64,000 nt of DNA from Janibacter sp. HTCC2649 (lineage in GTDB: Bacteria > Actinomycetota > Actinomycetes > Actinomycetales > Dermatophilaceae). Below the pieces are notes generated by a model. The model saw only the letters and a list, made by a program, of their open reading frames with translations. It searched no databases and had not been told where the DNA came from. Positions within the stretch are counted from its first letter, which is position 1; each line of letters starts with the position of its first letter. Both the position numbers and the translations under genes were made by a program. The DNA lies in contig NZ_CH672413.1 of assembly GCF_000152705.1 (NCBI RefSeq), forward strand, positions 4,128,804-4,192,803. Direction: 5' to 3'. This document shows, in pieces, positions 73 through 62,189 of the stretch.

Positions 73-1632
73 TCAGTTGACCCAGCGCGGGGTCCACACC
101 CGTCCGGTCGACGTGACCCTGGTGCTGGATGCACCGATGACGACGAGGCAGCTCATGTCGACCGACTCCGGGTCGAGCTCGCCGAGAGTCGTCACCGTGA
201 GTGCCTCACCGTCGCGACCGACGTTGCGGGCGACGACGACCACGCGCTCGGGCGGCGCCACCTGACGCACCGCGTCGAGGGCCTCGCCGAGCTGGTGCGG
301 GCGGCTGCGTGACCGCGGGTTGTAGAGCGCGACCGCAAGGTCCGACCGCACGGCCGAGGTGAGTCGGTCGAGCAGGACGTCCCACGGCTTGAGGCGGTCC
401 GACAGGGAGATGAGGGCGTGGTCGGCGCCGAGCAGGGCGCCGGCGAGGGCACTGGCAGCGTGGGCGGCCGTGATGCCGGGCACGACGTGGATCGCGACTG
501 ATGCATAGCGCTCGTCATCAGCGACAGCAGTCTCACTCGCCTCGAACACAGCGGCAGCCATGCCGAAGACTCCAGCGTCGCCGCCCGACACGACGGCGAC
601 GTCGTCGCCCTTGAGCGCGAGATCGAGGGCATGGCGACCACGATCCACCTCGACGGTGTTGCCGGTGGCATGTCGGGTGAGGCCGGGCCGCTGGGGCACC
701 CGGGCGACGTAGGGCGCGTAGCCGATGACGTGCTGAACCTGGGCAAGGACTTCGCTCGCCTCGGGGCTGAGCCACGCGTCGGGACCGGGTCCAAGGCCCA
801 CGACGTGGACGGTGCCCACGTGGAGTTCCGCTGTGGCAGACGCCTTTTCGAGTATGCCGTGTGCTTCAGCCCGTCCGGCCGCGTCGGCTCGCAGGTCCTC
901 ACCTGGGACGATGACGATCGACATGTAGGGCACGGTCTGGGGGTCGACGTCGCGCACTGGGACGACCCGCTGGCCCGAGCGACTCGCGTGCTCGACGTAG
1001 ACGGCGCGGTCGAGCAGCCCGGCCTGGTGCAGGGCTTCGCGGACACCTTCGAAGGTGCGGCCGAGCTTCATGATCACGGCCGAGTCGGTGTCGGCGAGGC
1101 GACGGGCGAGTTCCGGCACGGGCAGGGTGCCGGGCAGGACGGTGACCGTGTCCTCGTGGCGGGAGAGGCCCGAGCCGACGGCTGCGGTGGCGGCGGCCAT
1201 CGCGGTGATGCCGGGGACGACCTCGGTCGGGTAGTCGTCACGCAGGAGGTCGTGGACATACATGAACGACCCGTAGAAGAGGGGGTCGCCCTCGGCCAGG
1301 CAGACGATGCTGCGACCTGCCGCGAGGTGCGCGCGGAAGCGCTCGGCGCACTCGTCGTAGAAGTCGGCGAGGGCGCCGTAGTAGCCGCCCGGGTGGTCGG
1401 TGGTCCCCGTGGTCACGGGGTAGACGAGGGGTTCCTCGATGACGCCGTCGCGGAGGTGCTCGGCCGCGATCGAGCGCGCGGTCGACTCACGGTGGGCGGC
1501 CCGGTGATAGGCAATGACGTCAGCCGAGGCAATGAGCGAGGCGGCACGCAGGGTGATGAGGCCGGGGTCTCCGGGGCCGACACCGACCCCATAGAGGTGG
1601 CCCGGTTGTGCGCTGGCGATGTGGGCAGTCAT
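73..1632 (-). CDS. cobIJ: CobI-CobJ fusion: precorrin-2 C20- and precorrin-3B C17-methyltransferase
   Basis: This bifunctional SAM-dependent enzyme of the corrin ring pathway makes precorrin-3A from precorrin-2 (CobI half) and contracts and methylates precorrin-3B to precorrin-4 (CobJ half). The 519-residue protein has two tetrapyrrole methylase domains. The first has GVGVGPGDPG at 15-24 and AEGDP at 113-117. The second begins near 272, with VVGLGPGP at 277-284 and SGGDAGVFGM at 349-358. I chose ATG 1632 because it overlaps the cobH stop as ATGA; an in-frame extension to 1716 would run into cobH. It is the third gene of the leftward cobG-cobH-cobIJ operon. The fusion is known in actinobacteria, and both halves look intact. 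Confidence 0.93.
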   Translation of the reverse strand: MTAHIASAQPGHLYGVGVGPGDPGLITLRAASLIASADVIAYHRAAHRESTARSIAAEHLRDGVIEEPLVYPVTTGTTDHPGGYYGALADFYDECAERFRAHLAAGRSIVCLAEGDPLFYGSFMYVHDLLRDDYPTEVVPGITAMAAATAAVGSGLSRHEDTVTVLPGTLPVPELARRLADTDSAVIMKLGRTFEGVREALHQAGLLDRAVYVEHASRSGQRVVPVRDVDPQTVPYMSIVIVPGEDLRADAAGRAEAHGILEKASATAELHVGTVHVVGLGPGPDAWLSPEASEVLAQVQHVIGYAPYVARVPQRPGLTRHATGNTVEVDRGRHALDLALKGDDVAVVSGGDAGVFGMAAAVFEASETAVADDERYASVAIHVVPGITAAHAASALAGALLGADHALISLSDRLKPWDVLLDRLTSAVRSDLAVALYNPRSRSRPHQLGEALDAVRQVAPPERVVVVARNVGRDGEALTVTTLGELDPESVDMSCLVVIGASSTRVTSTGRVWTPRWVN

Positions 1633-2300
1633 GCGAGCTCGTCCTCGGTGGCGAGGGCGTTGAGGGCAGCGGCGGCCATGGCGGAGCCGCCGCGTCGACC
1701 GTGGACGACGAGCCACGGCACCTGACTGCCGTCCTCAAGCACGTGCTCGGCCAGAGCGGCCTTGGACTCGGCAGACCCGACGAAACCAACGGGCAGGCCA
1801 ACGATCGCCGCGGGGCGAGGTCCGCCATCGAGGATGACCTCGAGCAGGTGGAAGAGCGCGGTGGGTGCGTTGCCGATGGCCACGACGGCGCCTTCGAGGC
1901 GATCGCCCCAGAGGGAGACGGCCGCTGCAGCCCGGGTCGTGTCCCAGGTGGCAGCGAGGTCGGGCACGCGCTCATCGCGCAGGGTGCAGATGACCTCGTT
2001 GTCGGCGGGAAGGCGTCGACGGGTCACTCCCGACGCGAGCATCTGCGAGTCGGTGATGATCGGCGCGCCACTCGTCAGGGCCGATCTCGCTGCACGGACG
2101 ATGTCGTCGTGGGCGGCGATCTGGCTCGTGATGTCGACGTCGCCCGAAGCATGGATGATCCGGGTCGCCACGGTGTGGAGGTCGCTCGGCAGTGACGACA
2201 GGTCGCTCTCGGCGCGGATCATCGCGAACGACCGGCGATAGATCTCCTGGCCGTCGGTGACGTAGTCGTAGCGACGGGTGGGCGCTGCGTGCTCGCTCAC
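1629..2300 (-). CDS. cobH: Precorrin-8X methylmutase
   Basis: CobH moves the C11 methyl group to C12, turning precorrin-8X into hydrogenobyrinate. The protein is 223 residues, the usual family size. The motif ATRIIHASGDVD carries the conserved histidine (residue 50 here) that family knowledge gives as catalytic. GTG 2300 is chosen because it forms a GTGA overlap with the cobG stop and has a purine-rich GAGGAGAG just upstream. The longer ORF to 2639 is an extension inside cobG. Translation is probably coupled on both sides, with 4-base overlaps at each end. Confidence 0.93.
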   Translation of the reverse strand: MSEHAAPTRRYDYVTDGQEIYRRSFAMIRAESDLSSLPSDLHTVATRIIHASGDVDITSQIAAHDDIVRAARSALTSGAPIITDSQMLASGVTRRRLPADNEVICTLRDERVPDLAATWDTTRAAAAVSLWGDRLEGAVVAIGNAPTALFHLLEVILDGGPRPAAIVGLPVGFVGSAESKAALAEHVLEDGSQVPWLVVHGRRGGSAMAAAALNALATEDELA

Positions 2301-3442
2301 TGCTCTCCTCGAGTGGCTGCGGGGGCTGGCGTGGTCAGAGCCGAGACCACGTCGTCGACGGTTGGCGGTGCAACAAGAACCCGGTCGGATACCCCTGTGC
2401 CACACCGCCGTTCGCACCCGACGACGTGGACGTCCTGTGTGGCCGTCAGTCGTCGGGACGCCACCGTCTCGGCTGCGGATCGCGCGAGGTCGAGGGTGGG
2501 GACCGTCGTGCGTCGGCACGACGGGGCGCCGACACAGGCAGAGAGTCTGGCCCACGGCCCTTCGGACTCCGTCACCAGCCCCGCCCGACGCAGCACCTCC
2601 ACCTGTGCTGCACCACCTCGGACCACGACCGAACGCCACGGCGTGACGACCACGGTCTCGGCCACTTCGGCCAGTGCCTCGACATGCTCAGGCGTCAGCA
2701 TCCCCAGTGGAACGCCAGCGACCACATCGTCCCCCACCGTGCCCGGCACCAAGGGTGGCGCAACCACAGGCCGACTTGTTGCGCCATCCGTCGTCACTCG
2801 CTCCGCTCGCTCCGACGGATGGCGCAACAAGTCGGAGGGGGTGGGGAGGTCGCGAACGTTCCACGCCCCGGCCGGCGCCGTCTCGACGAAGCGCAGGGCG
2901 ACGTCGATCATGGCAGCCACAGCGTCAGCCGGAGCGACCGCGCGACCGAACTGGCCGGCATACAGGACTCCGGAAGTCGGCGATGTCCGCTGGTAGGCCA
3001 CGTCCCAGCGCTCCGAGAGCACCGAACCGGTGGCGTCGGAGAAGGCGAAGAGGAATCGACCCGGCAGCGAGGCCAACCGCGGCTCGGCCATCAGGGCGGC
3101 GTCGAACGCCCCGACGAGCTCGTCGAGTCCACGTGACTGAGGGGCCGCGATGATGTTGCGCACCCGCTCGTGCGACGCCGAGGGCAGCAGCCCCGTCGCC
3201 TCGACCGCCACGATCAAGGACTCGGGCAACGGATCGGGCAGGGCCCGCAGCTGGAGGTTGCCGCGCGAGGTCAGCTGGAGCACCGGAGCGCCGTATTGGG
3301 CAGCGATCGCCGAGACCTGCGCCAGCACGGACACCGCAACCCGGCCACCCGGCATACGCAATCTCACGAGCGCACCATCGTCCGCGATGAAGGGGCGCAG
3401 CAGTCCGGGACACCGGTCCGGGGGCCTCAGCGCGTCAGTCAT
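2297..3442 (-). CDS. cobG: Precorrin-3B synthase (CobG)
   Basis: CobG is an oxygen-dependent monooxygenase that converts precorrin-3A to precorrin-3B and marks the aerobic B12 route. The 381-residue protein has the nitrite/sulfite reductase-like layout. Cysteines C303, C309, C343 and C347 (CVGAPSC and CERRC) form the expected 4Fe-4S ligand set. It is the first gene of the leftward operon. A TACAGT -10-like box ends 8 bases before the ATG, so the transcript may be leaderless. Oddly, a 23-bp perfect inverted repeat (2771-2835) lies inside the gene and encodes residues about 203-224, between the two halves of the protein, without breaking the frame. Confidence 0.9.
   Translation of the reverse strand: MTDALRPPDRCPGLLRPFIADDGALVRLRMPGGRVAVSVLAQVSAIAAQYGAPVLQLTSRGNLQLRALPDPLPESLIVAVEATGLLPSASHERVRNIIAAPQSRGLDELVGAFDAALMAEPRLASLPGRFLFAFSDATGSVLSERWDVAYQRTSPTSGVLYAGQFGRAVAPADAVAAMIDVALRFVETAPAGAWNVRDLPTPSDLLRHPSERAERVTTDGATSRPVVAPPLVPGTVGDDVVAGVPLGMLTPEHVEALAEVAETVVVTPWRSVVVRGGAAQVEVLRRAGLVTESEGPWARLSACVGAPSCRRTTVPTLDLARSAAETVASRRLTATQDVHVVGCERRCGTGVSDRVLVAPPTVDDVVSALTTPAPAATRGEQ
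2771..2835. repeat. 23-bp perfect inverted repeat inside cobG
   Basis: Arms 2771-2793 and 2813-2835 are exact reverse complements around a 19-base loop rich in CTCGCT. Read on the minus strand the loop contains GAGCGGAGCGAGTG, which agrees at 12 of 14 bases with GAGCGCAGCGAGCG in the loop of the intergenic element at 48,564-48,619. It is read through in frame as part of cobG. Confidence 0.85.
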
Positions 3443-3450
3443 GGGGGTGA

Positions 3451-3566: not shown

Positions 3567-5234
3567 GTGCGTGTGCTGAACATGGTTGCCGTCGTTTCTG
3601 CTCTGTCGCTCGCGGCGGTCGGGCCAGGGGTGGCGGCTCACGCTGCCCCCGCTGCCGCATCACAGGCGGTGGCCGTGCAGGGTGAGGTGCCGCCGTACTT
3701 CGGCTCCGACCATGACAACCCGCGCACGGCGGACGCGCCAGTGGTTCGCCCCGACACCGCCAGCTGCTCCGTGCGGATCGTCGACCATGCGTTTGACGAC
3801 TACGCGGTCCACACCAGTGACTACACGCCCCCCACGAACTGTCGTGGTGACTGGAGCAAGATCGTGCTGACCATGCACGGATCGGTGGCGGGTCGCCAGT
3901 ACGACCGACTGGGCTGGCTCAAGATCGGCGGAGTCCCCGTCTTCAAGACCAGCACCCCCGAACCGTCTGCCGACGGCATCGAGTGGACGGTCGAGAAGGA
4001 CGTCACGGGAGTCGCCGCACTGCTCCGCGATCCGCAGCAGGTGCAGATGTACCTCGGCAACACCGTCGACAGCACGTACACCGGGATCTTCGACATCGAC
4101 GTCGACCTGACCTTCTACGCCACCTCCACGACGTGGCCCGCCGCGAAGGGTCCCGAGACCGTGCAGCCCCTGGCGTCGGCGACGACCGCGAACGGAGCCA
4201 CCAGCGGCACCCTCACCCTTCCGACCAACACGGAGAGGCTGCTCGCCCAGGTGTATGCCACCGGCTCCGGCGGTGGGTGCGAGGAGTTCTGGTACAGCGC
4301 CGCGCCCACCACGTCGCCCGACGACTACTGGTGCAAGACCGGCAAGGGCCCGTGGCGTGAGCTCGAGGTGCTCGTCGACGGCAGGCTCGCTGGTATCGCC
4401 ACGCCCTACCCCCACATCTACACGGGCGGCTGGTCGAACCCGTTCCTCTGGTACGTCCTCCCCGCACCGCGCACCTTCGACCTCCTGCCGCTGACGGTCG
4501 ACCTCACTCCGTTCGTGGGCACCCTCACGGACGGGCGGGCGCACGACGTGTCCGTGCGTGTGGTGGGCGCTGAGGGCTCCGGCTGGGACGTGCCCACCGC
4601 CTTCTCCTCCTGGCAGGACGAAGGATCGGCGAAGGTGACCGGCGCTGTGCGCTCGATCGACGAGACGGCACCCGTCGTGACGAACACGGTCGGCACCGAG
4701 GGCGCGAACTTCACGGCCGACCTCCACGGCAGCCACGCCCTCACCACCCAGGGCTATGTCGACACCTCACACGGGCGGGTCAGCACGAGCGTGTCCCGCA
4801 CGGTCGGCGCCCAGACCCACCACGTGTGGTCAGACGGGGAGACCAGCGACGGACAGGTCACGACCCTCACTGACACCGGCTACGTCCGGACCGAGGCCGG
4901 TCACGGGGTTCCGGCCTTTGATCGGTGGAACTACACCTTCTCCCTGGACGGGCAGATCGAGATCACCGACGCGGGCGACCTGACCACCACCATCACGGTG
5001 GGCGACACCGGGTCCGAGACCCGCAAGCAGGGTGCCGTTCGGGGCCCGTGGCGGTCCTGGGACCACGGGTACACCGGCGAGGCGACGTGGAACTACACGG
5101 TGCCTCGTGACGAGCGACGGGCCACCGGCTGGTCGAAGCAGGACTTCACCGACCGATCCTCGGTGGCACCGTGCTGGCACCGAGTGATCCACACGGTCAA
5201 CGGCGTGGTCACCGCTGACGCCACGGGCTGCTGA
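3567..5234 (+). CDS. Secreted peptide-N4-asparagine amidase A-like protein (PNGase A family)
   Basis: The 555-residue protein starts with a signal peptide (hydrophobic stretch to about residue 25, then AHAAPAAA). The body matches the PNGase A fold family: EEFWYS near 225, WRELEVLVDGRLAG near 260, HIYTGGWSNPFLWY near 280 and VDLTPFVGTLTDG near 312. Family members cleave N-linked glycans from asparagine in glycopeptides; whether this one does is inferred from similarity. GTG 3567 has a good ribosome site, GGAGGG. The gene stands alone between the cobG operon and the cobN riboswitch, and nothing links it to cobalamin. The C-terminal 150 residues are repetitive, Thr/Gly-rich beta-type sequence ending in two cysteines. 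Confidence 0.75.
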   Translation: MRVLNMVAVVSALSLAAVGPGVAAHAAPAAASQAVAVQGEVPPYFGSDHDNPRTADAPVVRPDTASCSVRIVDHAFDDYAVHTSDYTPPTNCRGDWSKIVLTMHGSVAGRQYDRLGWLKIGGVPVFKTSTPEPSADGIEWTVEKDVTGVAALLRDPQQVQMYLGNTVDSTYTGIFDIDVDLTFYATSTTWPAAKGPETVQPLASATTANGATSGTLTLPTNTERLLAQVYATGSGGGCEEFWYSAAPTTSPDDYWCKTGKGPWRELEVLVDGRLAGIATPYPHIYTGGWSNPFLWYVLPAPRTFDLLPLTVDLTPFVGTLTDGRAHDVSVRVVGAEGSGWDVPTAFSSWQDEGSAKVTGAVRSIDETAPVVTNTVGTEGANFTADLHGSHALTTQGYVDTSHGRVSTSVSRTVGAQTHHVWSDGETSDGQVTTLTDTGYVRTEAGHGVPAFDRWNYTFSLDGQIEITDAGDLTTTITVGDTGSETRKQGAVRGPWRSWDHGYTGEATWNYTVPRDERRATGWSKQDFTDRSSVAPCWHRVIHTVNGVVTADATGC

Positions 5235-5416: not shown

Positions 5417-8400
5417 ATGCCCCGCATCGCCCTCCTGTCGACATCCGACACCGACCTCCTCTGCGCCCGTGCGAGTGGAGCCGACTACGTCTGGGCCAAC
5501 CCTTCGCGGCCGGGTCACACCGACATGGCCGGCGCGATCGAGGGCGCCGACATCGTCGTGGCCCGCATCCTCGGCTCGCCGCAGGACCTCTGCTCGGGGT
5601 TCGCGCGCATCCGCGAAACGGGAGTCCCGCTCGTGGTCCTCGGTGGTGAGCAGGCGCCGAACGCCGCGCTCATGGCCGAGTCGACGGTCCCCTCCGGTGT
5701 CGTGCACGAGGCCCACCGCTACCTCGCGCAGGGCGGCTCCGACAACCTCCGGGAGCTCCACGCGTTCCTCTCGGACACGCTGCTCCTCAGTGGTGACCCG
5801 TTCGAGCCGCCGATCGAACTGCCGCGCTGGGGCACGCTCGAGCGCGAGACCACCACGACCGACCGCCCCCGCGTCGCCGTGCTCTTCTACCGAGCCCAGC
5901 AGGCTGCCGGGAACACCGACTTCGCGCACGCCCTCGCGGACGCCATCGACAACGCCGGGGGAGTGGGCGTGCCCGTCTACGCCACCTCGCTGCGCGACGC
6001 ACCCGAAGACCTCCTCGAACACCTCGGCACCTACGACGCGATCGTCACGACGGTCCTCGCCGCCGGTGGCACCCGCCCCGCGACCGCCTCCGCCGGCGAG
6101 GACGACGACTCCTGGAACGTCGCCGCCCTTGCCGCTCTCGACGTCCCCATCCTGCAGGGCCTCTGCCTCACGTGGAGCCGCGAGGAGTGGGCCCAGTCCG
6201 ACGACGGCATGTCGCCGCTCGACGTCGCGACCCAGGTTGCGGTGCCCGAGTTCGACGGCCGCATCATCACGGTTGCGTTCTCCTTCAAGGAGATTGACAC
6301 CGACGGACTGCCGCACTACGTCGCCGATCCCGAGCGTTGCGCCCGGGTCGCCGGCATCGCCGTCGGTCACGCCCGCCTGCGCCACACACCCGCGGCCGAG
6401 CGCAAGATCGCGATCCTGCTCTCCGCCTACCCGACGAAGCACTCCCGCATCGGCAATGCCGTCGGCCTCGACACACCCGTCTCGACCATTCGACTGCTGC
6501 GCGCGATGCGCGAGGCGGGCTACGACCTGGGCGAGCGGGGCGGCATACCCGGTCTCGACGACGTGGAGCCGCGCGACGGAGAAGCCCTCGACACCACGGC
6601 AGGCAACGCCCTCGTCCACGCCCTCATCGCCGCCGGCGGTCAGGACCCCGAGTGGCTGACCGACGGTCAGCTCACCGAGCACCACGTGCGCATTCCGAGC
6701 AGCCGGTATGCCGGGTGGTTCGCTGCGCTTCCGGCGGACCTTCGCGACGGGATGACGCAGGCGTGGGGCGAGGCTCCGGGGGAGTTGTTCGTCGACTCCT
6801 CGGCGGTGGCTCAGGGTGGCGAGCCCGAAATCGTTTCTGCCGCACTGCAATCGGGCAACATCGTGCTGCTCGTGCAGCCGCCGCGCGGGTTCGGCGAGAA
6901 CCCCATCGCGATCTATCACGACCCCGACCTCGCGCCTACGCACCACTACATCGCGACCTATCGGTGGATCGAGGAGGAGTTCGGCGCCCACGCCGTCGTC
7001 CACATGGGCAAGCACGGCAACCTCGAGTGGCTCCCGGGCAAGAACCTCGCCCTGTCCGACGGGTGCGGGAGCGATGCCGCGCTGGGTTCGGTGCCGCTCA
7101 TCTACCCGTTCCTCGTCAACGACCCGGGCGAGGGCACGCAGGCCAAGCGCCGCGCGCACGCGACGATCGTCGACCACCTCGTGCCGCCCATGGCGCGCGC
7201 CGAGTCCTACGGCGACATCGCCCGGCTCGAGCAGCTGCTCGACGAGTACGGCAACGTCTCGGCCATGGACCCGGCCAAGGCGCCAGCGCTGCAGGGTGAG
7301 ATCTGGACCCTGCTCCAGGCGGCGAAGCTCGACCAGGACCTTGGGCTGACCGAGCGGCCGGACGAGGGTGGGTTCGACGCACTCGTGGGCGAGATCGACT
7401 ATCACCTGTGCGCCATCAAGGATGTCCAGATCCGGGATGGGCTCCACGTCCTCGGCGAGGCGCCCAGCGGTGAGGGCCTCGACAACCTCGTCCTCGCGAT
7501 CCTGCGTGCCGGACAGGTCTTCGGAGGCCAGCAGGACGGCATACCCGGTCTGCGAACGGCCCTGGGACTCAGCGACACGGGAGCGTCCACGAGTGAAACC
7601 GACGCGGCCGAGGAGACGGCCGGACGCCTTGTCCGGGCGCTGTCGGCCCGCGACTGGGACGGCTCGGCCGTTCCCGAGATCGTCCTCGCCGAGCTCGGTG
7701 CGGGACACGCTGGCGTCGAGGCCTCGCTGCGGTTCGCCTGCGAAGAGGTCGTCCCGCGACTGGCCGGAACCACGGGCGAGATCCCGATGGTGCTGCACGC
7801 GCTCGACGGTGGCTACGTCCCGGCTGGGCCCTCGGGATCGCCGCTGCGTGGGCTCGTCAACGTGCTGCCCACGGGACGCAACTTCTACTCGGTCGACCCC
7901 AAGGCGATCCCGTCACGGCTCGCCTACGAGACCGGCTCGGCGATGGCGGACTCGCTGCTGCAGCGCTACCTCGACGACGAGGGCGAGCTGCCCCGCTCGG
8001 TCGGTCTCTCGGCGTGGGGCACGTCGGCGATGCGCACCTCCGGTGACGACATCGGCGAGATCCTCGCGTTCCTCGGCGTGATCCCGTTGTGGGACGAGCA
8101 GTCCCGCCGGGTGATCGGGCTCGACGTGATCCCGCTCGAGGAACTCGGGCGACCGCGCATCGACGTGACCGTGCGCATCTCGGGCTTCTTCCGTGATGCC
8201 TTCCCGCACGTCATCAACCTCATCGACGACGCGGTGGCTCTCGTCGTCGGGCTCGACGAGCCACTCGACCAGAACTACCCCAAGGCCCACGCCATGGCTG
8301 ACGTCCACGAGCATGGGGACGAGCGTCGCTCTCGCACAAGGGTGTTCGGCTCCAAGCCCGGCTCCTACGGCGCCGGAATCCTCCAGGTCGTCGAGTCGGG

Positions 8401-9052: not shown

Positions 9053-10803
9053 GCGCCCACAGCAGCTGGCCGCGGCCCACGCCCCTCGTCGGTGACGCGT
9101 CCAGCGCCCGGGAGCGCAGTGCCGACCCGTCGGGCTGGGCCTTCGAGCCAGAGGTCATTGCCGGCCTCGACGAGGTCATCGGGGGCCGCCGCGACATCCG
9201 CCGGTTCCGCCCCGACGCGGTCCCGCAGCCTCTTCTCACCGAGGTCCTGACTGCTGGCCACCAGGCGCCGTCGGTCGGCCACTCCCAGCCGTGGCGGTTC
9301 ATCGTCGTGCGCGACCCGGCGATCCGTGACCGAGCCGCTCACCTCGCCGACCGAGCCCGTCTCGACCAGGCCGCACTCCTCACCGACGACCGCGCCGCCC
9401 GGATGCTCGACCTCAAGCTCGAGGGCCTGCGCGAGGCACCCGTCGGCGTCGTCGTGGTCTGTGACCGACGCACCCCCGCGAGTGGAGTGCTCGGTCGTGC
9501 GACCTTCCCCGACGCCGACCTCTGGTCGTGTGCCTGCGCCATCGAGAACATGTGGCTCGCAGCCCGCGCACGCGGCCTGGGCATGGGCTGGGTGACGCTC
9601 TTCGACCCCGCCGAGCTGGCCGACCTGCTCGAACTCCCCGATGACGTCGTCCCCATGGGTTGGATGTGCCTCGGCTGGCCCGACGAGCGCCCGCCCGCGC
9701 CCGGCCTGGAGCGCGCCGCCTGGTCGAAGCGGATGCCCCTCGATGACGTCGTCATGCATGACCGGTGGGCCCATGAGGATGCAGCGCCGCCGGCCTCCCA
9801 CCTCGACCGCCTGCCCCAGCAGTCCCTCGTCTCGGCCACCGACGATGCCGATGGCCTCCTCGCACCACCCGAGTCCCTGGGCGTGCTCGACCGCGTCGTG
9901 AGCCGCGTCGAAGCACTGGGACGAGGGCGTATGCCGCTCGGCGGCACCTTGGTCCTCGCTGGCGCCAGCCACCCGGTCGCCGCTCTCGGTGTGAGCGCCT
10001 ATCCCGAGAGGGTCACCCGCGACGTTCTCGAGGCCGCTGTCTCGGGCATGGCTGCGGGTGCGGTCAGTGCCCGATCAGCAGGGCTCGACATCGTCGTGGT
10101 CGACGCCGGTGCCACCGCTGGCAGTCCTGTCGCGGGCGCCGTTGACGCCCACCCGCACCACCCCGTCGGTGACCTCGTCGACGCGGATGCGTTGTCTCGC
10201 AGCGATGTTGACCGCCTCGTCCTCCTGGGCGTGGAGATCGGTGAGAAGGCCGCTGCGACCGGTCTCATCGCACTCGGCGAGGTCGGCATCGGCAACACGA
10301 CCGTCGCTGCAGCACTTGCCTGCGTCGTGACCGGGTTGTCGCCACGCGACGCGGTCGGTGTCGGAGCAGGGGCCGACACCGACATCGTCGAGCGCAAGCG
10401 TGCCGCCGTGGAGCAGTGCCTGGCCAGGGTCGGTTCCCGGGCGCACGCCTGGCGCGAGGACCCGGCCGACCTCCTTGCCGCGCTCGGTGGTGCGGAGATC
10501 GCGGTCCTCACCGGTGTGGTGCTCGGTGCTGCGGGCGCTGGTGCCCCGGTGGTTCTCGACGGCCTCGCCGGTTCGTTGCCGGGTGTTCTCGCTGTGGCCC
10601 TCGACCCGGGCGTGCAGGCGCACCTCATCGCCGGTCAGCAGAGCCGCGAACGCGCCCACGGTGAGGTCCTCAGGCTGCTCGGCCTCGAGCCGCTTCTCGC
10701 CCTGCGCCTGCGCTCCGGCGAAGGTGTCGGCGCGACCCTCGCGGCCTCCCTCATCCTGCAAGGGCTGCGCATCCGCCGCGAAGTCGCCCGCACGAGCCTC
10801 TGA
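9049..10803 (+). CDS. BluB-CobT fusion: DMB synthase and DMB phosphoribosyltransferase
   Basis: This fusion both makes and activates the lower ligand of B12. The N-terminal part (about 25-235) is a BluB-type nitroreductase fold (GGRRDIRRFRPD, APSVGHSQPWRF, ENMWLAARARGLGMGWV), which converts reduced FMN and oxygen to 5,6-dimethylbenzimidazole. The C-terminal part (about 255-584) is CobT, which makes alpha-ribazole phosphate from nicotinate mononucleotide; GEVGIGNTTVAAAL near 408-420 carries the catalytic glutamate of the family. GTG 9049 forms a GTGA overlap with the cobN stop, so the two are co-translated under the same riboswitch. A longer ORF back to 8920 is inside cobN. Confidence 0.93.
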   Translation: MSAHSSWPRPTPLVGDASSARERSADPSGWAFEPEVIAGLDEVIGGRRDIRRFRPDAVPQPLLTEVLTAGHQAPSVGHSQPWRFIVVRDPAIRDRAAHLADRARLDQAALLTDDRAARMLDLKLEGLREAPVGVVVVCDRRTPASGVLGRATFPDADLWSCACAIENMWLAARARGLGMGWVTLFDPAELADLLELPDDVVPMGWMCLGWPDERPPAPGLERAAWSKRMPLDDVVMHDRWAHEDAAPPASHLDRLPQQSLVSATDDADGLLAPPESLGVLDRVVSRVEALGRGRMPLGGTLVLAGASHPVAALGVSAYPERVTRDVLEAAVSGMAAGAVSARSAGLDIVVVDAGATAGSPVAGAVDAHPHHPVGDLVDADALSRSDVDRLVLLGVEIGEKAAATGLIALGEVGIGNTTVAAALACVVTGLSPRDAVGVGAGADTDIVERKRAAVEQCLARVGSRAHAWREDPADLLAALGGAEIAVLTGVVLGAAGAGAPVVLDGLAGSLPGVLAVALDPGVQAHLIAGQQSRERAHGEVLRLLGLEPLLALRLRSGEGVGATLAASLILQGLRIRREVARTSL

Positions 10804-11608: not shown

Positions 11609-12379
11609 TGGGGCCGTGAGCGCGTAGGTGTCCATCACCCAGCCGTGTTGCTCGCGCAACTGAGCGCGCACGGCAACGATGTCCTCGATGACGTCGGCCA
11701 GCCGCCCGGCGCGCAGAACCTGTTGTGGCAGGCCGAGATACGCGCCCCAGTGGATCGTCAGATCCGGTGCCCGCTCGACCAGCTCGCGGCATTTCAACGC
11801 CCCATCCAGCATCACCACGACGGTCCCGAGGCGGGGTGACCACTCGTCGAGCAGCCGCCGTCCGGTCGTGATGTGCACGGGCTGGCCGATGCCGTTCAAC
11901 ACGATGCCGTGCTCGGCCGCGAGGACCTGGATCGCGGACAGCCCGGCGACCACCTGCGTCCGCAGGGGCAGCCGCCGAGCCACCGCGTCGACGATGCGAA
12001 TGGTGCTGTCGTAGAACGCCGGATCGCCCCACACGAGGAACCCCACGGTCTCGCCAGGCGAGAGACTTTCGATGATCTCGGCGTAGCGGTCCGCGCGCGC
12101 TGCGTGCCACGCATCCACACCCGTTCGGTATGCCGCCTTGTCCCGTTCCGCGTCCGGCCCACGTTCCGGGTCGGTCACCGTGACGATGCGATAGGTCCCC
12201 CCCTCGAGGAACTCCGCGCAGATGAGGCGACGCACCGCGACGAGCTCGTCCTTGGCCTCGCCCTTGTCGGCGACAAGGAAGACGTCGCACTCACGCAGGG
12301 CTGCGATGGCCTGCCCGGTGACGTGGGTGGGGGATCCGGTGCCGATGCCGATGACGCGCACTTCACGAGGGGTGGTCAT
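11549..12379 (-). CDS. cobF: Precorrin-6A synthase (deacetylating)
   Basis: CobF methylates C1 of precorrin-5 and releases the extruded acetyl group, giving precorrin-6A; it occurs only in the aerobic pathway. The 276-residue sequence shows the tetrapyrrole methylase signature GIGTGSPTHVTGQA at 11-24 and WGDPAFYDS near 118. Features typical of CobF rather than of other methylases are FLVADKGEAK near 34 and the C-terminal HGWVMDTYALTAP. ATG 12379 overlaps the cobQ stop as ATGA, so it is translated after cobQ. Its 3' end overlaps the convergent pterin dehydratase gene by 60 bases. Confidence 0.92.
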   Translation of the reverse strand: MTTPREVRVIGIGTGSPTHVTGQAIAALRECDVFLVADKGEAKDELVAVRRLICAEFLEGGTYRIVTVTDPERGPDAERDKAAYRTGVDAWHAARADRYAEIIESLSPGETVGFLVWGDPAFYDSTIRIVDAVARRLPLRTQVVAGLSAIQVLAAEHGIVLNGIGQPVHITTGRRLLDEWSPRLGTVVVMLDGALKCRELVERAPDLTIHWGAYLGLPQQVLRAGRLADVIEDIVAVRAQLREQHGWVMDTYALTAPSPGDAENPSVAVLVGDDRE

Positions 12380-13830
12380 CGGGTGAGCTCCAGAAGCAGT
12401 TGGTGGTCAAGGTGTTCGTCGACGGCGTCGGCCAGGGCATCGATCATCGTTTCGCGTCGTTCCGCGAATCCGAGGGCGGTCGCATCGGGTCGCCAGGATG
12501 AACCGGCCGCCGCCGCAACCTCGGTGAGCCACGCGCGGCGGAAGTCGTCGCACTCGAGGGTGCCGTGCCAGATCGTTCCCCACACCGAGTCCGAGGCAGT
12601 GCCACCGGGGAAGGCTCGGTCGTCGGAGACCACGCCGTGGTGGATCTCGTAGCCCTCGACGGCGTGGCCACGCCACTCGTCGGTCGGGCGCGCCAGCACC
12701 TTCTCGGGCAGGAACGTCACCGTGGTCGGCAGCAGGGCCAAACCGGGCACGCGCCCACCCTGCTCACTCTCCACCGGGTCGTCGATCCACTGTGCCAACA
12801 TCTCGTAGCCACCGCAGATCCCGAGCACCGGGCGTCCCTGCGACGCCCGCCAGGCAACGACGTCGGCCACACCGCTCGACCGCAGCCACTCCAGGTCGCT
12901 GACGGTCGCGCGCGAGCCGGGCAGGACGACAAGGTCAGCCTCACGGCATACGTCAAGGTCTGTCGTCACCCGCACGTCCACTCCCGGCTCGGCGGCCAGG
13001 GCGTCCACGTCGGTGGCGTTCGAGGTCCGCGGGAAGCGCACGACCGCCACGGACAGCCGGTTGCCCGACGTGTCAGACGAGGGCCGCCAGCGACCGATCG
13101 ACAGGGCGTCCTCCGAGTCGAGCCACACGTCCTCGAGCCACGGGAGGACACCGGCACACGGCATACCCGTTCGCTCGGTCACCATGTCGAGACCGGGAGT
13201 CAGCACTGACTCGTCACCGCGGAACTTGTTGATGACATAGGCGCGCAGCAGAGCCCGATCGGAGTCGTCCACCAGGCCCCACGTGCCGAACAAGGCAGCC
13301 AGAGCGCCACCTCGGTCGATGTCGGCGACGATCAGCGCAGGCAAGGAAAAGCGCTGTGCCAGACCAAGATTCACATAGTCGCCAGAGCGCAGGTTGACCT
13401 CGGCGGGCGATCCGGCCCCCTCCGCCACCACGAGGTCGACCGAGGCCGACAGCTCTTCAAAGGCAGCAAACGCAGCCTCCGCCAGGTGTCGTCGACCCGT
13501 CGCATACTCACCCGCCACGAGCTGCCCAGCCGGCCGACCGCGCACCACGACAAAGGCCCGTCGATCACTTCCCGGCTTGAGCAGCACGGGGTTGTGGACC
13601 GACGTGGGCTCGACCCGAGCGGCCTGGGCCTGGAGGTACTGCGCCCGCCCGATCTCGGAGCCGTCGCGGCAGACCATCGAGTTGTTCGACATGTTCTGGG
13701 CCTTGAACGGCGCGACCCGGATGCCCTGGCGGGACCACAGGCGGCACAGGGCCGTGACGACGAGAGACTTCCCCGCATCGGAGCTCGTCCCCGTCACCAG
13801 TAGTCCCGACACCTCGCGGAGTTTACGCAT
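12376..13830 (-). CDS. cobQ: Adenosylcobyric acid synthase
   Basis: CobQ amidates adenosylcobyrinate a,c-diamide at four side chains, using glutamine and ATP. The 484-residue protein has the P-loop-like VTGTSSDAGKS near residue 10, AQNMSNNSM near 46, and the amidotransferase motif GICGGYE with the nucleophile cysteine near residue 339; EIHHG lies farther on. ATG 13830 (MRKLREVSG) is chosen because the family begins just before this P-loop. The open frame runs on to 15093 but overlaps two genes on the other strand. The gene is divergent from the histidine phosphatase, with 15 bases between start codons. Confidence 0.94.
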   Translation of the reverse strand: MRKLREVSGLLVTGTSSDAGKSLVVTALCRLWSRQGIRVAPFKAQNMSNNSMVCRDGSEIGRAQYLQAQAARVEPTSVHNPVLLKPGSDRRAFVVVRGRPAGQLVAGEYATGRRHLAEAAFAAFEELSASVDLVVAEGAGSPAEVNLRSGDYVNLGLAQRFSLPALIVADIDRGGALAALFGTWGLVDDSDRALLRAYVINKFRGDESVLTPGLDMVTERTGMPCAGVLPWLEDVWLDSEDALSIGRWRPSSDTSGNRLSVAVVRFPRTSNATDVDALAAEPGVDVRVTTDLDVCREADLVVLPGSRATVSDLEWLRSSGVADVVAWRASQGRPVLGICGGYEMLAQWIDDPVESEQGGRVPGLALLPTTVTFLPEKVLARPTDEWRGHAVEGYEIHHGVVSDDRAFPGGTASDSVWGTIWHGTLECDDFRRAWLTEVAAAAGSSWRPDATALGFAERRETMIDALADAVDEHLDHQLLLELTR

Positions 13831-37036: not shown

Positions 37037-37112
37037 GGACGGGACCGACCGGACTGGACCCCGAGCTCGGGCGTCGCACGCTGAGGCGAGCACACGGCAT
37101 ACATCGTCAAAG

Positions 37113-48624: not shown

Positions 48625-49245
48625 TCAGTCCTCGATGAGGGGGACGAAACGGTAGGCCCCGTGGATCTCGACCCGAGCGTCATCCAGCCGTCCTGCTGGG
48701 TATGCCGCCCGCTCACCTTCGCTGCCCGCGTCCCGGTCGCGCGTCACCTTGTGCATCCACCTGAGCACCGGAATCACCATGACGCCACCGGGCACGAGCT
48801 GGTCGACGAGAACCCGGGGGAGGGTCCGCGCCTGCGCCGACACGAGGATCCGGTCGAAGGGGCCGTCGCTGGGTGAGCCCAGGACTCCCGGAGCGGCCAG
48901 CGTGAGGTGAGCCCACGGCATACCCGCTCGGTCGAGGTTGACCGCGCCGGTCTTGCGGAGCTCGGGCACCCGTTCGACGCCGATCACTGAGCCCGACGGG
49001 CCGGTGAGGTGGGCAAGCAACGCGGTCGTCCAACCGGAGCCGGCGCCGACGTCGAGGACGCGATCGCCGGGTCGCACGCCGAGCAACTCGAGCATGGCGG
49101 ACACCGTGCGGGGCTGGGAGTTCGTCTGGCCGTGCCCGATCGGCAAGGGCCCGTCACGTCCCGCGTGCCGGCGCTCGCGCAGCGGTAGGTAGTCCCGACG
49201 CGGCCGCGCGACCATCGCTTCCGCGACCTTCTCCCGTGCGTCCAT
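48625..49245 (-). CDS. pcm: Protein-L-isoaspartate O-methyltransferase
   Basis: The 206-residue SAM enzyme repairs isoaspartate in aged proteins. It has RRDYLPLRER near 16, IGHGQTNSQPRTVSAMLELL near 35, SAM motif VLDVGAGSGWTTALLAHL near 62 and LVPGGVMVIPV near 148. ATG 49245 is chosen; the frame is open far upstream but overlaps the divergent radical SAM gene. Confidence 0.9.
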   Translation of the reverse strand: MDAREKVAEAMVARPRRDYLPLRERRHAGRDGPLPIGHGQTNSQPRTVSAMLELLGVRPGDRVLDVGAGSGWTTALLAHLTGPSGSVIGVERVPELRKTGAVNLDRAGMPWAHLTLAAPGVLGSPSDGPFDRILVSAQARTLPRVLVDQLVPGGVMVIPVLRWMHKVTRDRDAGSEGERAAYPAGRLDDARVEIHGAYRFVPLIED

Positions 49246-49302: not shown

Positions 49303-51291
49303 ATGGACACCCGTACTCCTGGCGACTCCCTGTTCCCCGCGCTCGAGCCCCTGCTCGAGCAGGTGAGCAAGCCGATCCAGTACGTCGGCGGTGAGCTCAA
49401 CTCGACCGTCAAGGACTGGGACTGCGGCGGGGCCAACACCGTGCGCTGGGCGCTCATGTACCCCGACGCCTACGAGGTCGGTGTCCCCAACCAGGGCTCG
49501 ATGATCCTGTACGAAGTCCTCAACGAGCGCGACGGCGTCCTCTGCGAGCGCACGTATGCCGTGTGGCCCGACATGGAGGCCCTCATGCGTGCCGAGGGGG
49601 TTCCGCAGTTCACTGTCGACGCACACCGCGCGATCGGTGACTTCGACGTCCTCGGCGTCTCGTTCTCGACCGAGCTCGGCTACACCAACCTCCTCACCGC
49701 GCTCGACCTCGGCGGCATCCCGCTGCACGCGCGTGACCGCGTCGACGGCGACCCGATCGTCATTGCTGGCGGGCACGCGGCGTTCAACCCCGAGACGCTC
49801 GCCGACTTCATCGACGCCGCCATCATCGGCGACGGTGAGGAAGCCGTCCTCATGGTCACCGGCCTCATCAATGCGTGGAAACGCGAGGGTATGCCGGGGG
49901 GCCGGCGTGAGCTGCTGCTGCGCCTTGCGAAGACCGGCGGGGTCTACGTGCCCGGGTTCTATGACGTGACCTACCTGGCCGATGGCCGCATCCAGCGCAT
50001 CGCGCCGACCGAGCCCGGTGTCCCGTGGCGCGTGTCGAAGCACACCGTCATGGACCTCGATGCGTGGCCGTACCCGAAGCAGCCGCTCGTGCCGCTCGCT
50101 GAGTCGGTGCACGAGCGCATGTCGGTCGAGATCTTCCGCGGTTGCACCCGTGGCTGCCGCTTCTGCCAGGCCGGCATGATCACCCGCCCGGTGCGTGAGC
50201 GCTCCATCACCGGCATCGGCGAGATGGTCGAAAAGGGGCTCGCCGCAACGGGATTCGAAGAGGTGGGCCTGCTGTCGCTGTCGAGCGCCGACCACTCCGA
50301 GATCGCCGAGCTGACCAAGGGGCTCGCCGATCGCTACGAAGGCACCCAGACCGGACTGTCGCTTCCGTCAACTCGCGTCGACGCCTTCAACATCGACCTC
50401 GCCAACGAGCTGACCCGCAACGGGCGCCGCTCCGGGCTGACGTTCGCCCCCGAGGGTGGCAGCGAGCGGATCCGCAAGGTGATCAACAAGATGGTCACCG
50501 AGGAGGACCTCATCAAGACCGTCTCGGCGGCCTACGGAGCAGGCTGGCGCAACGTCAAGCTCTACTTCATGTGCGGCCTCCCGACCGAGACCGACGAGGA
50601 CGTCCTCCAGATCGCCGAGCTCGCCAAGAAGGTCATCGAGACCGGGCGTCAGGTCAGTGGCCGCAAGGACATCCGCTGCACCGTGTCGATCGGTGGCTTC
50701 GTGCCCAAGCCGCACACCCCGTTCCAGTGGGTCGCGCAGCTCTCGGCCGATGAGACCGACGCCCGACTCACGAAGTTGCGCGACGCCATCCGCGCCGACA
50801 AGCGGTTCGGGTCATCGATCGGCTTCCGCTACCACGACGGCAAGCCCGGCATCGTCGAGGGACTCCTGTCCCGCGGTGACCGCCGCGTGGGCGCCGTCAT
50901 CGAGCAGGTGTGGCGCGACGGCGGACGCTTCGACGGGTGGAGCGAGCACTTCTCCTACGAGAAGTGGATGACCGCTGCCGACAAGGCGTTCGCCGCGAGC
51001 GAGTGGCCGATCGACGTCGACTGGTACACGACGCGCGAGCGTGAGGAGTCCGAGGTCCTGCCCTGGGACGTCGTCGACTCCGGCCTCGACAAGGAATGGC
51101 TCTGGCAGGACTGGCTCGACTCTCTCGACGAGACCGAGGTCGACGACTGCCGCTGGACTCCCTGCTTCGACTGTGGCGTCTGCCCGCAGATGGGCACCGA
51201 GATCGAGATCGGCCCGACTGGCAAGGTGCTCCTACCCCTCACGATCCTCGGTGCAGGCAAGGCCGGCATGGCCGAACACACCCACGCCTGA
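49303..51291 (+). CDS. B12-binding-type radical SAM protein (TIGR03960 family)
   Basis: The 662-residue protein has an N-terminal cobalamin-binding-like fold (VPNQGSMILYEVLN, DVLGVSFSTELGYTNLLTAL) and a radical SAM core with CTRGCRFC (C281, C285, C288), GGSERIRKVINK and VGGFVPKPHTPFQW-like motifs (SIGGFVPKPHTPFQWV). Its end CDCGVCPQ-like segment (CFDCGVC) could bind another cluster. The usual partner, the DUF2344 protein, is at 57,448. The reaction is not known. The start fits a leaderless promoter. Confidence 0.9.
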   Translation: MDTRTPGDSLFPALEPLLEQVSKPIQYVGGELNSTVKDWDCGGANTVRWALMYPDAYEVGVPNQGSMILYEVLNERDGVLCERTYAVWPDMEALMRAEGVPQFTVDAHRAIGDFDVLGVSFSTELGYTNLLTALDLGGIPLHARDRVDGDPIVIAGGHAAFNPETLADFIDAAIIGDGEEAVLMVTGLINAWKREGMPGGRRELLLRLAKTGGVYVPGFYDVTYLADGRIQRIAPTEPGVPWRVSKHTVMDLDAWPYPKQPLVPLAESVHERMSVEIFRGCTRGCRFCQAGMITRPVRERSITGIGEMVEKGLAATGFEEVGLLSLSSADHSEIAELTKGLADRYEGTQTGLSLPSTRVDAFNIDLANELTRNGRRSGLTFAPEGGSERIRKVINKMVTEEDLIKTVSAAYGAGWRNVKLYFMCGLPTETDEDVLQIAELAKKVIETGRQVSGRKDIRCTVSIGGFVPKPHTPFQWVAQLSADETDARLTKLRDAIRADKRFGSSIGFRYHDGKPGIVEGLLSRGDRRVGAVIEQVWRDGGRFDGWSEHFSYEKWMTAADKAFAASEWPIDVDWYTTREREESEVLPWDVVDSGLDKEWLWQDWLDSLDETEVDDCRWTPCFDCGVCPQMGTEIEIGPTGKVLLPLTILGAGKAGMAEHTHA

Positions 51292-51294: not shown

Positions 51295-51825
51295 ATGTCA
51301 GGGCGACCGGTCGGGACCTCTGTGACGAGTCGGGGGTCCCTGAGGCCCCGACTCGTCACAGATTGGGCGACTCGTGGCGGCACCATCCGCCCGGTCGGCA
51401 ACAGCAGCGACCTGGACGACCTCATCGCGCTGCGACTTGCATGGAAGCCTGCGTCCGATGACACCCAGGCCGATGCCCTGGCCGACGACATGCGTTCCTG
51501 GTGGGAACGCAACGGCGCTGGAAGGCGAGCGTGGATCGCGAGGGGAGCAGGCGGCATACCCGTCGGCATGGCCAACGCGGCCATCTTCGAACGCATGCCG
51601 GTCCCGGGAACGGGGTCAGCGCGGTGGATCTACGTCGCCAATGTCTTCGTCCTGCCGGAGCACCGCAGGCAGGGCATTGCCGCCGACCTCATGAACGCGC
51701 TTGTCGAATGGGCTCGCGCCGAGGGCATGGTGCGCATCGTCCTCGCACCGAGCGAGATGTCGATCCCGTTCTATGCCTCACTCGGGTTCCGGCCTGCTGA
51801 CGACCTCATGCGCCTGGACCTGTGA
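51295..51825 (+). CDS. GNAT family N-acetyltransferase
   Basis: The 176-residue protein has GNAT features: TIRPVGNSSDLDDLIALRLAW near 29, then WIYVANVFVLPEHRRQGIAADLMNAL-type motif A (RRQGIA) near 120 and FYASLGFRPADDLMRLDL at the end. The start is uncertain: ATG 51295 or GTG 51322. Both place the 17-bp hairpin 51319-51362 in the first codons. Substrate unknown. Confidence 0.8.
   Translation: MSGRPVGTSVTSRGSLRPRLVTDWATRGGTIRPVGNSSDLDDLIALRLAWKPASDDTQADALADDMRSWWERNGAGRRAWIARGAGGIPVGMANAAIFERMPVPGTGSARWIYVANVFVLPEHRRQGIAADLMNALVEWARAEGMVRIVLAPSEMSIPFYASLGFRPADDLMRLDL
51319..51362. repeat. 17-bp perfect hairpin at the GNAT 5' end
   Basis: TCTGTGACGAGTCGGGG (51319-51335) and its complement (51346-51362) flank a 10-base loop. 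It may end the radical SAM transcript or mask GNAT translation. Confidence 0.8.
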
Positions 51826-53849: not shown

Positions 53850-54179
53850 ATGCCCTGGTTCGCCCTCCTGCTCACCGTCTGGCTCGTCTGCGCCGGCCGG
53901 GCGCGTCGCCCTCGCGGTGATCGCTGGCGGATTCGTCTGTATGCCGTGACGCTGGTCCCCGTGTCAGTCCTGGTCCTTGTGGGGGTCCTGCTCGCCATCC
54001 AGTCGGTCGTCGGGGGGCCGTCCGAAGGCGCTCTTCCTGCGACGCTGCCCTATGCGCAATGGCTCGGACTGGTGACCAACCTCGTCGTGGCCGACATCGT
54101 CCTCCAGCGTCGCGCGCCCGCCCACAGGTTCACGAGGCATTCACTTTCGGATCGGCCTCCGGCCCTCGTCCGTGACTAG
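53850..54179 (+). CDS. Small membrane protein, unknown
   Basis: The 109-residue protein has three predicted membrane stretches: FALLLTVWLVCAG near 4-16, LYAVTLVPVSVLVLVGVLLA near 32-52 and AQWLGLVTNLVVADIVL near 70-86. The start could also be GTG 53820. I recognise no family. Its TAG stop begins the TAGGTT -10 box of the next gene. Confidence 0.5.
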   Translation: MPWFALLLTVWLVCAGRARRPRGDRWRIRLYAVTLVPVSVLVLVGVLLAIQSVVGGPSEGALPATLPYAQWLGLVTNLVVADIVLQRRAPAHRFTRHSLSDRPPALVRD

Positions 54180-55444: not shown

Positions 55445-55485
55445 CAGGTATGCCGTGGCACCCGACGGGTGCCACGGAATACCTG
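55445..55485 (+). terminator. Hairpin after the EEP-fold gene
   Basis: A 19-bp stem with one mismatch surrounds the loop GAC (CCC-GAC-GGG). It contains the GGTATGCC motif in its left arm. Confidence 0.82.
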
Positions 55486-57381: not shown

Positions 57382-57421
57382 GACAGGACCACACGGCATA
57401 CGCACGTGGATCTGGTCTGTC
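57382..57421 (+). terminator. Imperfect hairpin before the DUF2344 gene
   Basis: GACAGGACCA pairs with TGGTCTGTC with one bulged base. It follows the WXG-type gene by two bases. Confidence 0.5.
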
Positions 57422-57447: not shown

Positions 57448-58197
57448 ATGGCTCGTCGCATCCCTGAAGGTCCTCCGCCGCCGCTTGCGGTCCAGAAGCT
57501 CCGCATCCGCTACGCCAAGCGTGGCCGGCTGCGCTTTTCCTCGACGCGTGACTTCGCGAGGGCCCTCGAACGCGCCCTGCGTCGCTCGGGCGTGCCCATG
57601 GCCTTCTCGGCCGGCTTCCACCCGCACCCCAAGATCAGCTACGCCAACGCGGCCCCGACGGGCACGGCCAGCGAGGCGGAGTACTTCGAGATCTCGGTGA
57701 CCGAACGCGTCGACCCCGAAGCCGTGCGACTCGCCCTCGACGAGGCGCTGCCCCCCGATCTCGACATCATCGAGGTCGTCGAAGCCGGCCCCGGAGGCCT
57801 CGCCGAGCGCCTCGAGGCGAGCGTCTGGCGGCTCGAGATGCGTGGCGTCACCGTCGAGACCCTCGGGTATGCCGTGGAGCAGTTTCTCGCTGTCGAGGTG
57901 GCCGAGGTGACCCGCATGTTCAAGACCGGCGCCAAGACCTTCGACGTCCGGTCCGCCGTCGTGTCCATGGTCGCCACCGAGAGCGAAGACGGCTCGTGTG
58001 CGATACTGCAGATGGTCGTTCGGCACACCACACCGTCCGTTCGCCCCGATGACATCCTGACCGCACTGCGCGCAGTGACAGAGCTCAGGCCACCGGTCCC
58101 ACCTCTGGTGACCCGACTGGCCCAGGGCCCACTGCTCACCGAAGCTGCCGGGGTGGCCGATCCACTGGCCGCCGACAAGGACGCCGTCGGTTCCTGA
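57448..58197 (+). CDS. Radical SAM-linked DUF2344 protein (TIGR03936 family)
   Basis: The 249-residue protein has LRIRYAKRGRLRFSSTRDFARALERALRRSG near 18, AFSAGFHPHPKISYANAAPTG near 52 and EYFEISVTE near 76, the TIGR03936 signature. It is normally next to or fused with the TIGR03960 radical SAM protein, which lies 6 kb upstream here. The C-terminus holds the rather variable VSMVATESEDGSC. Function not established; RNA modification is often supposed. Confidence 0.88.
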   Translation: MARRIPEGPPPPLAVQKLRIRYAKRGRLRFSSTRDFARALERALRRSGVPMAFSAGFHPHPKISYANAAPTGTASEAEYFEISVTERVDPEAVRLALDEALPPDLDIIEVVEAGPGGLAERLEASVWRLEMRGVTVETLGYAVEQFLAVEVAEVTRMFKTGAKTFDVRSAVVSMVATESEDGSCAILQMVVRHTTPSVRPDDILTALRAVTELRPPVPPLVTRLAQGPLLTEAAGVADPLAADKDAVGS

Positions 58198-62132: not shown

Positions 62133-62144
62133 TTCCACAGCAAC

Positions 62145-62189
62145 AGGCGCCTGTATGCCGTGCACTGAGCACGCTGCCTACGGGCGCCT
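62145..62189 (+). terminator. Terminator after rpmA
   Basis: A 14-bp stem (AGGCGCCTGTATGC with GCCTACGGGCGCCT, one mismatch and one wobble pair) encloses a second stem CGTGC/GCACG. TTTGCTT follows, the best T-rich tail seen in the window. Confidence 0.85.

Follow-up and report, generated by a model that had tools for sequence, protein, structure and literature searches.

An asymmetric octamer repeated genome-wide in an actinobacterial family, a candidate self-DNA tag with orientation-specific spacing

Why does one seven-letter word, GGCATAC or its complement GTATGCC, return so often in a 64,000-nucleotide stretch of the genome of Janibacter sp. HTCC2649? This stretch (G000:C1:4128804-4192803, hereafter the window) contains 41 copies, 19 on the plus strand and 22 on the minus strand, for an order-0 expectation of 6.8. 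A first-pass annotation had reported about 41 copies on both strands, with six or seven expected from base composition, and had proposed selection for a DNA motif; our counts agree with both figures, and all 20 coordinates that it named carry the word. A C precedes GGCATAC in 40 of the 41 copies and we thus took the core to be CGGCATAC, which by direct inspection is non-palindromic (it differs from its own reverse complement). We suggest, with a probability of about one half, that CGGCATAC could be a clade-specific self-DNA tag working like an uptake sequence, without classing it as a DNA uptake sequence (DUS).

The excess extends to the whole genome (4.235 Mb), in which we counted 2,982 copies of CGGCATAC (1,496 on the plus and 1,486 on the minus strand) versus 59 of the reversed word used as a control (24 and 35), far over expectation. 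This control is conservative in motif-rich genomes, where it is inflated because CGGCATAC followed by GGC contains the reversed word. In our own sample of 864 kb, made of the window and 40 stretches of 20 kb from the same genome, 581 copies were found for 6.8 expected under an order-3 Markov model of the motif-masked sequence. A maximal-order model predicted 38 copies in the window because almost all GCATA are part of the motif, and Markov ratios were not trusted alone since, in our interpretation, in-frame runs such as TAC TAC (CTACTAC) exceed them too. One-mismatch forms, pooled over the 864-kb sample, showed a small excess (527 versus 428 expected), indicating that the core is sharp over its 8 bp.

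The word is also strongly conserved at orthologous positions. An alignment of the genome of the window (G000) with that of G003, a member of the same genus, covered 119.8 kb at 84.3% identity, and in each direction 76 of 89 sites were intact, versus 34% of other octamers (40,637 of 118,245) and 39% of words with a permuted core (3,436 of 8,911). GCA codons were conserved in 16 of 18 cases within the motif versus 108 of 350 outside it, and TAT codons in 23 of 23 versus 52 of 82. Motif codons are thus kept far more than the same codons elsewhere, which indicates that the word, not the protein, is maintained; the proposal of selection for a DNA motif is well supported by these codons, in the sense of selection (or drive) overriding codon choice. 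Identity within 60 bp of the sites was not raised in this comparison, the flanks being at background. We also obtained no evidence of site compensation between the two genomes, as a same-orientation G003-specific site lay within 1 kb of 1 of 13 sites specific to G000. Because G000 and G003 are related and most sites are common to both, they are not independent, whereas G074, from another genus, and the Janibacter clade described below are.

The word also leaves a footprint on coding sequences. Nearly half of the ATA codons lie inside the motif (46 of 94, among 231,223 sampled codons), so that this codon is not equally common outside it, and the same is true of 188 of 779 TAT codons in the sampled genes. 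According to the first-pass annotation, the coding copies often read Gly-Ile (GGC ATA). This frame proved to be a minority: the 433 coding sites are dominated by Tyr-Ala (TAT GCC, 182) and Ala-Tyr (GCA TAC, 137), followed by Gly-Ile (46) and Met-Pro (42). Among the positions cited for it, we recovered the Gly-Ile frame at 6542 and 7538 (cores 6541..6548 and 7537..7544, plus strand, cobN-like gene) and at 27436 (core 27435..27442, plus strand, a gene with a molybdopterin-cofactor-binding domain), while no gene was called at 29208 and 51553 by our crude gene finder, leaving these two unconfirmed. The dipeptides AY and YA reached 1.18 and 1.21 times their expectation, versus 0.90 and 0.81 times for AW and WA. 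Intergenic DNA holds 144 of the 581 sites, at a density of 0.81 per kb versus 0.63 per kb in coding DNA; these counts are approximate, as genes were called with a simple open reading frame (ORF) and codon model (79% coding). After correction for codon position, a weak flank pattern was visible in the genome of the window, alike in the 433 coding and 144 intergenic sites: A at -1, -6, -11/-12, -17/-18 and -29/-30, G at -7, -9 and -26/-27, C at +9, and T across most of +12 to +19. As intergenic sites show the same flanks, we rejected a codon artefact as the cause of the motif.

How far does the word extend among relatives? In 89 genomes of the Dermatophilaceae/Intrasporangiaceae, 51 carried at least 400 copies of CGGCATAC, seven carried 150-399 and 31 fewer than 150. 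Outside the family, none of 58 genomes from other families of the same order reached 200 copies, and the maximum in a phylum sample (292 genomes outside the family, out of 296) was 386 copies in a genome of 7.5 Mb (control 176); five genomes are common to these two samples. Rich and poor genomes can occur within one genus, as do G032 (motif-rich) and G075 (motif-poor). We also examined 19 named whole genomes, several of which, judging by their counts, are also in the family and order samples. High counts were obtained for Tetrasphaera australiensis (3,226), Terrabacter tumescens (2,358), Intrasporangium chromatireducens (1,572), Segeticoccus rhizosphaerae (1,407), Intrasporangium calvum (1,225, control 463), Pedococcus sp. 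(836), Ornithinimicrobium laminariae (404) and two metagenome-assembled genomes (1,178 and 872), and low ones for Phycicoccus (34, 23 and 25), Janibacter (7, 25 and 32), Mobilicoccus (43), Piscicoccus (48), Antribacter (68) and Arthrobacter (66).

Some of the genomes lacking high counts of CGGCATAC turned out to have words of their own. Both genomes of genus g20, which account for two of the seven genomes with 150-399 copies, have little CGGCATAC (196 and 153, controls 125 and 58) and carry instead 1,204 and 878 copies of CCGCATAC (controls 107 and 97). This second word was also counted 459 times in G025 and 433 times in G019, where the controls were 312 and 461; its reversed control is inflated in the same way as that of CGGCATAC. 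The Janibacter clade (genera g37 and g38), to which four of the 31 poor genomes belong, is without CGGCATAC and CCGCATAC and carries an unrelated word, CCCCTTCG, found 49 times in 58 kb versus 6.0 expected. All four of its genomes have it (3,180 and 2,589 copies in g37, 2,201 and 1,813 in g38, controls 110-142), and the count does not exceed 396 (control 194) in any of the remaining 143 of the 147 genomes. The words are thus clade-specific dialects following genera. In Janibacter the octamer, CCCCTTCG/CGAAGGGG, is distributed genome-wide, with about 3,000 copies in J. melonis, and alternates in orientation (loci L015, L020, L022, L206 and L253-L257). No octamer as strong as the Janibacter word was found in the motif-poor genera surveyed, from three Phycicoccus, one Mobilicoccus and seven further 13.5-kb loci, all of them short. 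At one motif-poor locus (L208, genome G075), ACGAGCAG occurs 15 times in 13.5 kb versus 1.3 expected, which may be a further dialect or an effect of codon runs. The flanks differ among genera and the core less so: G003 agrees with G000, in G074 the pattern is replaced by a strong C at -2, the other genera pooled have a weaker pattern, and in g20 CA precedes CCGCATAC.

We then considered the orientation of the copies. With dnaA (C1:2743564) taken as the origin and the terminus placed half-way round, the called genes were divided into 415 leading and 217 lagging, and CGGCATAC showed no bias in the 864-kb sample (283 leading and 298 lagging, p 0.56). The last fifth towards the terminus had a site density of 0.53 per kb, versus 0.68-0.72 elsewhere. 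A replication-polar signal was rejected on the strand counts, so that chromosome organisation, which the first-pass annotation had listed among its options, is unsupported in its replication-polar form; an uptake-type or other self-DNA signal, also on that list, is the option that fits best.

Neighbouring copies, on the other hand, were far from randomly oriented with respect to each other. Adjacent copies of CGGCATAC were opposite rather than in the same orientation in 364 versus 176 cases in G000, 195 versus 89 in G003, 78 versus 49 in G015 and 190 versus 106 in G074. For CCCCTTCG the ratio was 79:34 in the Janibacter clade and 68:26 in J. melonis alone, given separately because loci L020 and L022 share gene content with L015; for CCGCATAC in g20 it was 62:46, which is not significant. 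With positions kept fixed and gaps under 100 bp dropped, none of 2,000 permutations of the orientation labels reached the observed alternation in any of four sets, and same-orientation pairs at 100-1,000 bp were as few as observed in 0, 0, 0 and 37 of 2,000 permutations. We compared the motif with 366 other octamers of 200-800 copies each, and repeated the comparison without motif-related words: its fraction of opposite neighbours was 0.667 (maximum of the others 0.587) and its low same-orientation fraction 0.264 (minimum of the others 0.322).

The distances between pairs account for this alternation. Same-orientation pairs closer than 1 kb numbered 82 versus about 184 expected in G000 and 70 versus 110 in G074, whereas opposite pairs, convergent or divergent, were near or over expectation in both; same-orientation copies are thus under-represented within about 1 kb of one another while opposite ones are not, and neighbours alternate as a result. 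Each orientation acts like a separate array, redundant over a range of about 1 kb. This independence was not seen in the g20 dialect, where pairs of opposite copies 200-700 bp apart were scarce too (3 versus 7.3 expected), and same-orientation pairs of the Janibacter word under 100 bp were not depleted (6 versus 4.1). A mild excess of close opposite pairs was observed under 50 bp in G000 (16 versus 10.5) and G003 (10 versus 5.0); under 100 bp the counts were 11 versus 10.9 in G074, 6 versus 1.4 in G027 and 12 versus 4.5 in Janibacter. The spacing of all copies was slightly even (coefficient of variation (CV) 0.93 versus 1.01 simulated, fraction 0.024; 0.87 versus 1.00, fraction 0.009, in the first 464 kb), because of the same-orientation pairs alone. 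A local cluster of same-orientation copies of CGGCATAC within 700 bp, probably a tandem repeat, was noticed in a stretch of G027 (L230-L249).

The word is scarce in DNA that is probably foreign, as judged from one island and one phage. The poorest of the 41 stretches (L090, G000:C1:210001-230000) has 2 sites in 20 kb and is a heavy-metal resistance region with two metal P-type ATPases, a multicopper oxidase, a cation efflux gene and an IS21-type ATPase fragment; it looks acquired, and its origin is probably recent. The Tetrasphaera phage TJE1, whose host is T. jenkinsii, has 2 sites in 49 kb (57.7% G+C).

Candidate readers of the word were sought among genes for natural transformation and recombination. 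In Actinobacteria, natural transformation has been studied in Micrococcus luteus, where it requires Flp/Tad pili (PMC4322843). ComEC was found in 139 of 147 genomes and T2SSF, from Tad or type IV pilus (T4P) systems, in 145 of 147, whether or not the motif was present. As comEC and Tad-type genes are equally common in motif-poor genera, they do not predict the motif, and the presence of com or Tad-type genes was rejected as the switch. Three family genomes had no ComEC match (G036, G040 and G041, fragmented and 58, 81 and 95% complete), all of them motif-rich. At the motif-poor locus L208 of G075, ComEC aligns as two overlapping pieces in different frames and may be frameshifted. Type IV pilins were rejected as the receptor pilus, since their motif PF07963 was found in 2 of 89 family genomes. 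RecC had no match in any of the nine genomes examined from the window's genus. Its occurrence in the family is patchy, with 11 of 51 motif-rich genomes (at least 400 copies) and 17 of 31 poor ones (fewer than 150), an inverse association with the motif (Fisher p 0.004). A RecBCD Chi was therefore rejected: RecC was not found in that genus and is present in rich and poor genomes alike, and there is no leading-strand polarisation.

Within the window, besides the three Gly-Ile sites given above, the plus strand carries CGGCATAC cores at 2956..2963, 3350..3357, 12944..12951, 13159..13166, 17175..17182, 19311..19318, 19908..19915, 29207..29214, 37095..37102, 40503..40510, 41775..41782, 43131..43138, 45644..45651, 48916..48923, 51552..51559 and 57394..57401. 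Cores on the minus strand lie at 852..859, 6706..6713, 9929..9936, 12128..12135, 15156..15163, 16500..16507, 18136..18143, 20947..20954, 24244..24251, 30856..30863, 34202..34209, 35755..35762, 40518..40525, 44098..44105, 48700..48707, 49554..49561, 49889..49896, 53939..53946, 55448..55455, 57867..57874 and 62153..62160, and the sole GGCATAC without the leading C, which follows a T, is at 4253..4259 on the same strand. The cores at 40503..40510 and 40518..40525 are the left and right halves of an inverted pair, held in a perfect inverted repeat (40492..40536, 21-nucleotide arms and a 3-nucleotide loop, read from the sequence) directly after the IF-2 ORF. Despite this hairpin, terminators were rejected as the general role of the word because only 16 of 540 gaps in G000 are shorter than 45 bp (17.4 expected). 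The first-pass annotation had noted the absence of copies from its insertion sequences and from a WXG pair, and we likewise found none within a repeated element running from 44125 to at least 45000, nor within two small genes at 61488-62132, presumably that pair. Elsewhere in the genome the repeated element is matched identically over 876 bp at three places (C1:606669, 2632332 and 2706233), and G003 has five matches at 89%; the site at 44098 lies just outside its edge. Within the ORF called nusA, the segment 36114-36163 has numerous matches, on either strand, across several genomes of the window's genus.

Taken as a self-DNA tag, CGGCATAC would be read by a predicted DNA receptor that prefers word-bearing DNA, and the word would be restored again and again in the resident genome as imported DNA recombines with it homologously, its upkeep being possibly due to molecular drive, to selection for conspecific DNA, or to both. 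We infer that an uptake receptor is the reader. Since an orientation-blind drive should not give an orientation-specific spacing, polar reading or import of a single strand is indicated; recognition or import would then be polar, such that one copy per orientation in each tract of about 1 kb may be enough and a second one redundant. We tentatively go one step further, to a proposal that has perhaps one chance in three of being right in all its parts: a polar, genome-wide self-DNA code made of two interleaved per-strand arrays of octamers, with copies at least about 1 kb apart, interpreted by a directional reader that would be neither an orientation-blind receptor nor RecBCD, and whose word could be replaced wholesale, CGGCATAC giving way to CCGCATAC or to CCCCTTCG, which is unrelated. 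Several points weigh against the self-DNA tag. The comEC and Tad-type genes are equally common in motif-poor genera, and G036, G040 and G041 are motif-rich without a ComEC match. Alternation is not significant in g20, where opposite pairs are few as well; only within the genus of the window is the flank pattern clear, other genera having weaker or different flanks; and one-mismatch forms are only slightly over expectation. Uptake directed by the uptake signal sequence (USS) of Pasteurellaceae is reported to be orientation-blind, and would not by itself predict an exclusion restricted to the same orientation. Finally, both the receptor and uptake itself are putative.

The main rival, which we consider unlikely though clearly ahead of the others, is a Chi-like polar recombination signal, by which a helicase-nuclease other than RecBCD, of which AdnAB is an example, would read one strand from a DNA end, so that a second copy within about 1 kb would be redundant. 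It predicts the same-orientation exclusion and the independence of opposite copies, and would suit the octamer length, the conservation, the scarcity in phage and island and the clade-specific words. However, it sits poorly with the absence of leading-strand bias and with extended flanks, which it would not lead one to expect, and the RecC distribution excludes its RecBCD version. Consecutive sites moreover alternate, whereas polarised words should keep consecutive copies on one strand (PMC8022716). The orientation-specific exclusion and the dialects would equally fit a directional start site of another kind on the chromosome, serving the DNA on one side, where the terminase of a gene-transfer agent or a conjugative enzyme that nicks or translocates DNA would begin. 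A transfer or packaging signal present in thousands of copies per genome would be unusual, and we regard it as improbable.

We give similarly little credit to binding by a protein that organises the chromosome or nucleoid, with selection acting on the spacing of its sites. The slightly even spacing and the long flank pattern could both be cited for it, but the evenness comes from same-orientation pairs only, there is neither replication polarity nor a rise towards the terminus, and a clade of the same family has an unrelated word. The least probable explanation, to which we attach very little weight, is an effect of modification, mutation bias or codon context without any signal function; it is difficult to reconcile with the occurrence of the word in every frame as well as between genes and with its conservation between orthologs (85% versus 34%), and a repair bias would not keep same-orientation copies apart.

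In the papers cited here, the sequence-tagged genomes of the uptake kind are those of Neisseriaceae and Pasteurellaceae. If CGGCATAC is indeed such a self-DNA tag, this actinobacterial family, with its three or more words, would offer a third test of how tags evolve, among bacteria that possess Tad-type genes and for the most part no type IV pilins. Models of word upkeep are separated by the spacing rule, and the word may be a simple way to trace gene flow and to flag foreign DNA in a family that includes the abundant phosphate-accumulating Tetrasphaera of wastewater (PMC9123174). We did not find an earlier description of an orientation-specific spacing rule. Among the literature matches listed (titles and starts of abstracts, mostly open-access), none reported a highly iterated word or one of the uptake type, either in this family or in Actinobacteria at large, which is weak evidence of absence.

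Among known systems, the closest likeness is with uptake sequences. The DUS of Neisseriaceae occur, like CGGCATAC, in thousands of short, asymmetric and conserved copies about 1-1.5 kb apart, with species or genus dialects; neisserial DUS are enriched in the core genome, absent from recently acquired genes, conserved, spaced like conversion tracts of about 1.1-1.7 kb and divided into eight dialects (PMC2397512, PMC3630211). Unlike them, CGGCATAC is actinobacterial and its part in uptake is putative, its carriers rarely have the type IV pilin motif, and it shows same-orientation exclusion and a wholly unrelated word within the family. The USS of Pasteurellaceae have a spacing of about 1 kb and AT-rich flanks, and USS hairpin pairs are in excess; close opposite pairs of CGGCATAC gave a mixed picture, mildly over expectation under 50 bp in G000 and G003 and at expectation under 100 bp in G074. 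The layout and sequence of the flanks differ, and the spacing of CGGCATAC depends on orientation whereas uptake in Haemophilus is reported to be independent of USS orientation (PMC1939737). Chi sites share with CGGCATAC an asymmetric octamer that is clade-specific, conserved and apparently polar. They are polarised on the leading strand (PMC8022716), unlike CGGCATAC, which has no leading-strand bias, alternates between neighbours and shows no tie to the presence of RecBCD. Architecture-imparting sequences (AIMS) and FtsK-orienting polar sequences (KOPS) are likewise octamers spread over the chromosome, but AIMS are strand-biased and rise in abundance to the terminus (PMC5993296), two features lacking in CGGCATAC. 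The cyanobacterial HIP1 resembles it in its extreme iteration and its presence in only some relatives; it is a palindrome linked to methyltransferases (PMC4390886), whereas CGGCATAC is asymmetric and has a spacing rule. With over-representation on both strands, no replication-strand bias, conservation together with scarcity in putatively acquired DNA, and genus dialects, CGGCATAC thus fits the DUS and USS on the genomic tests run, and adds to them the exclusion between copies of the same orientation.

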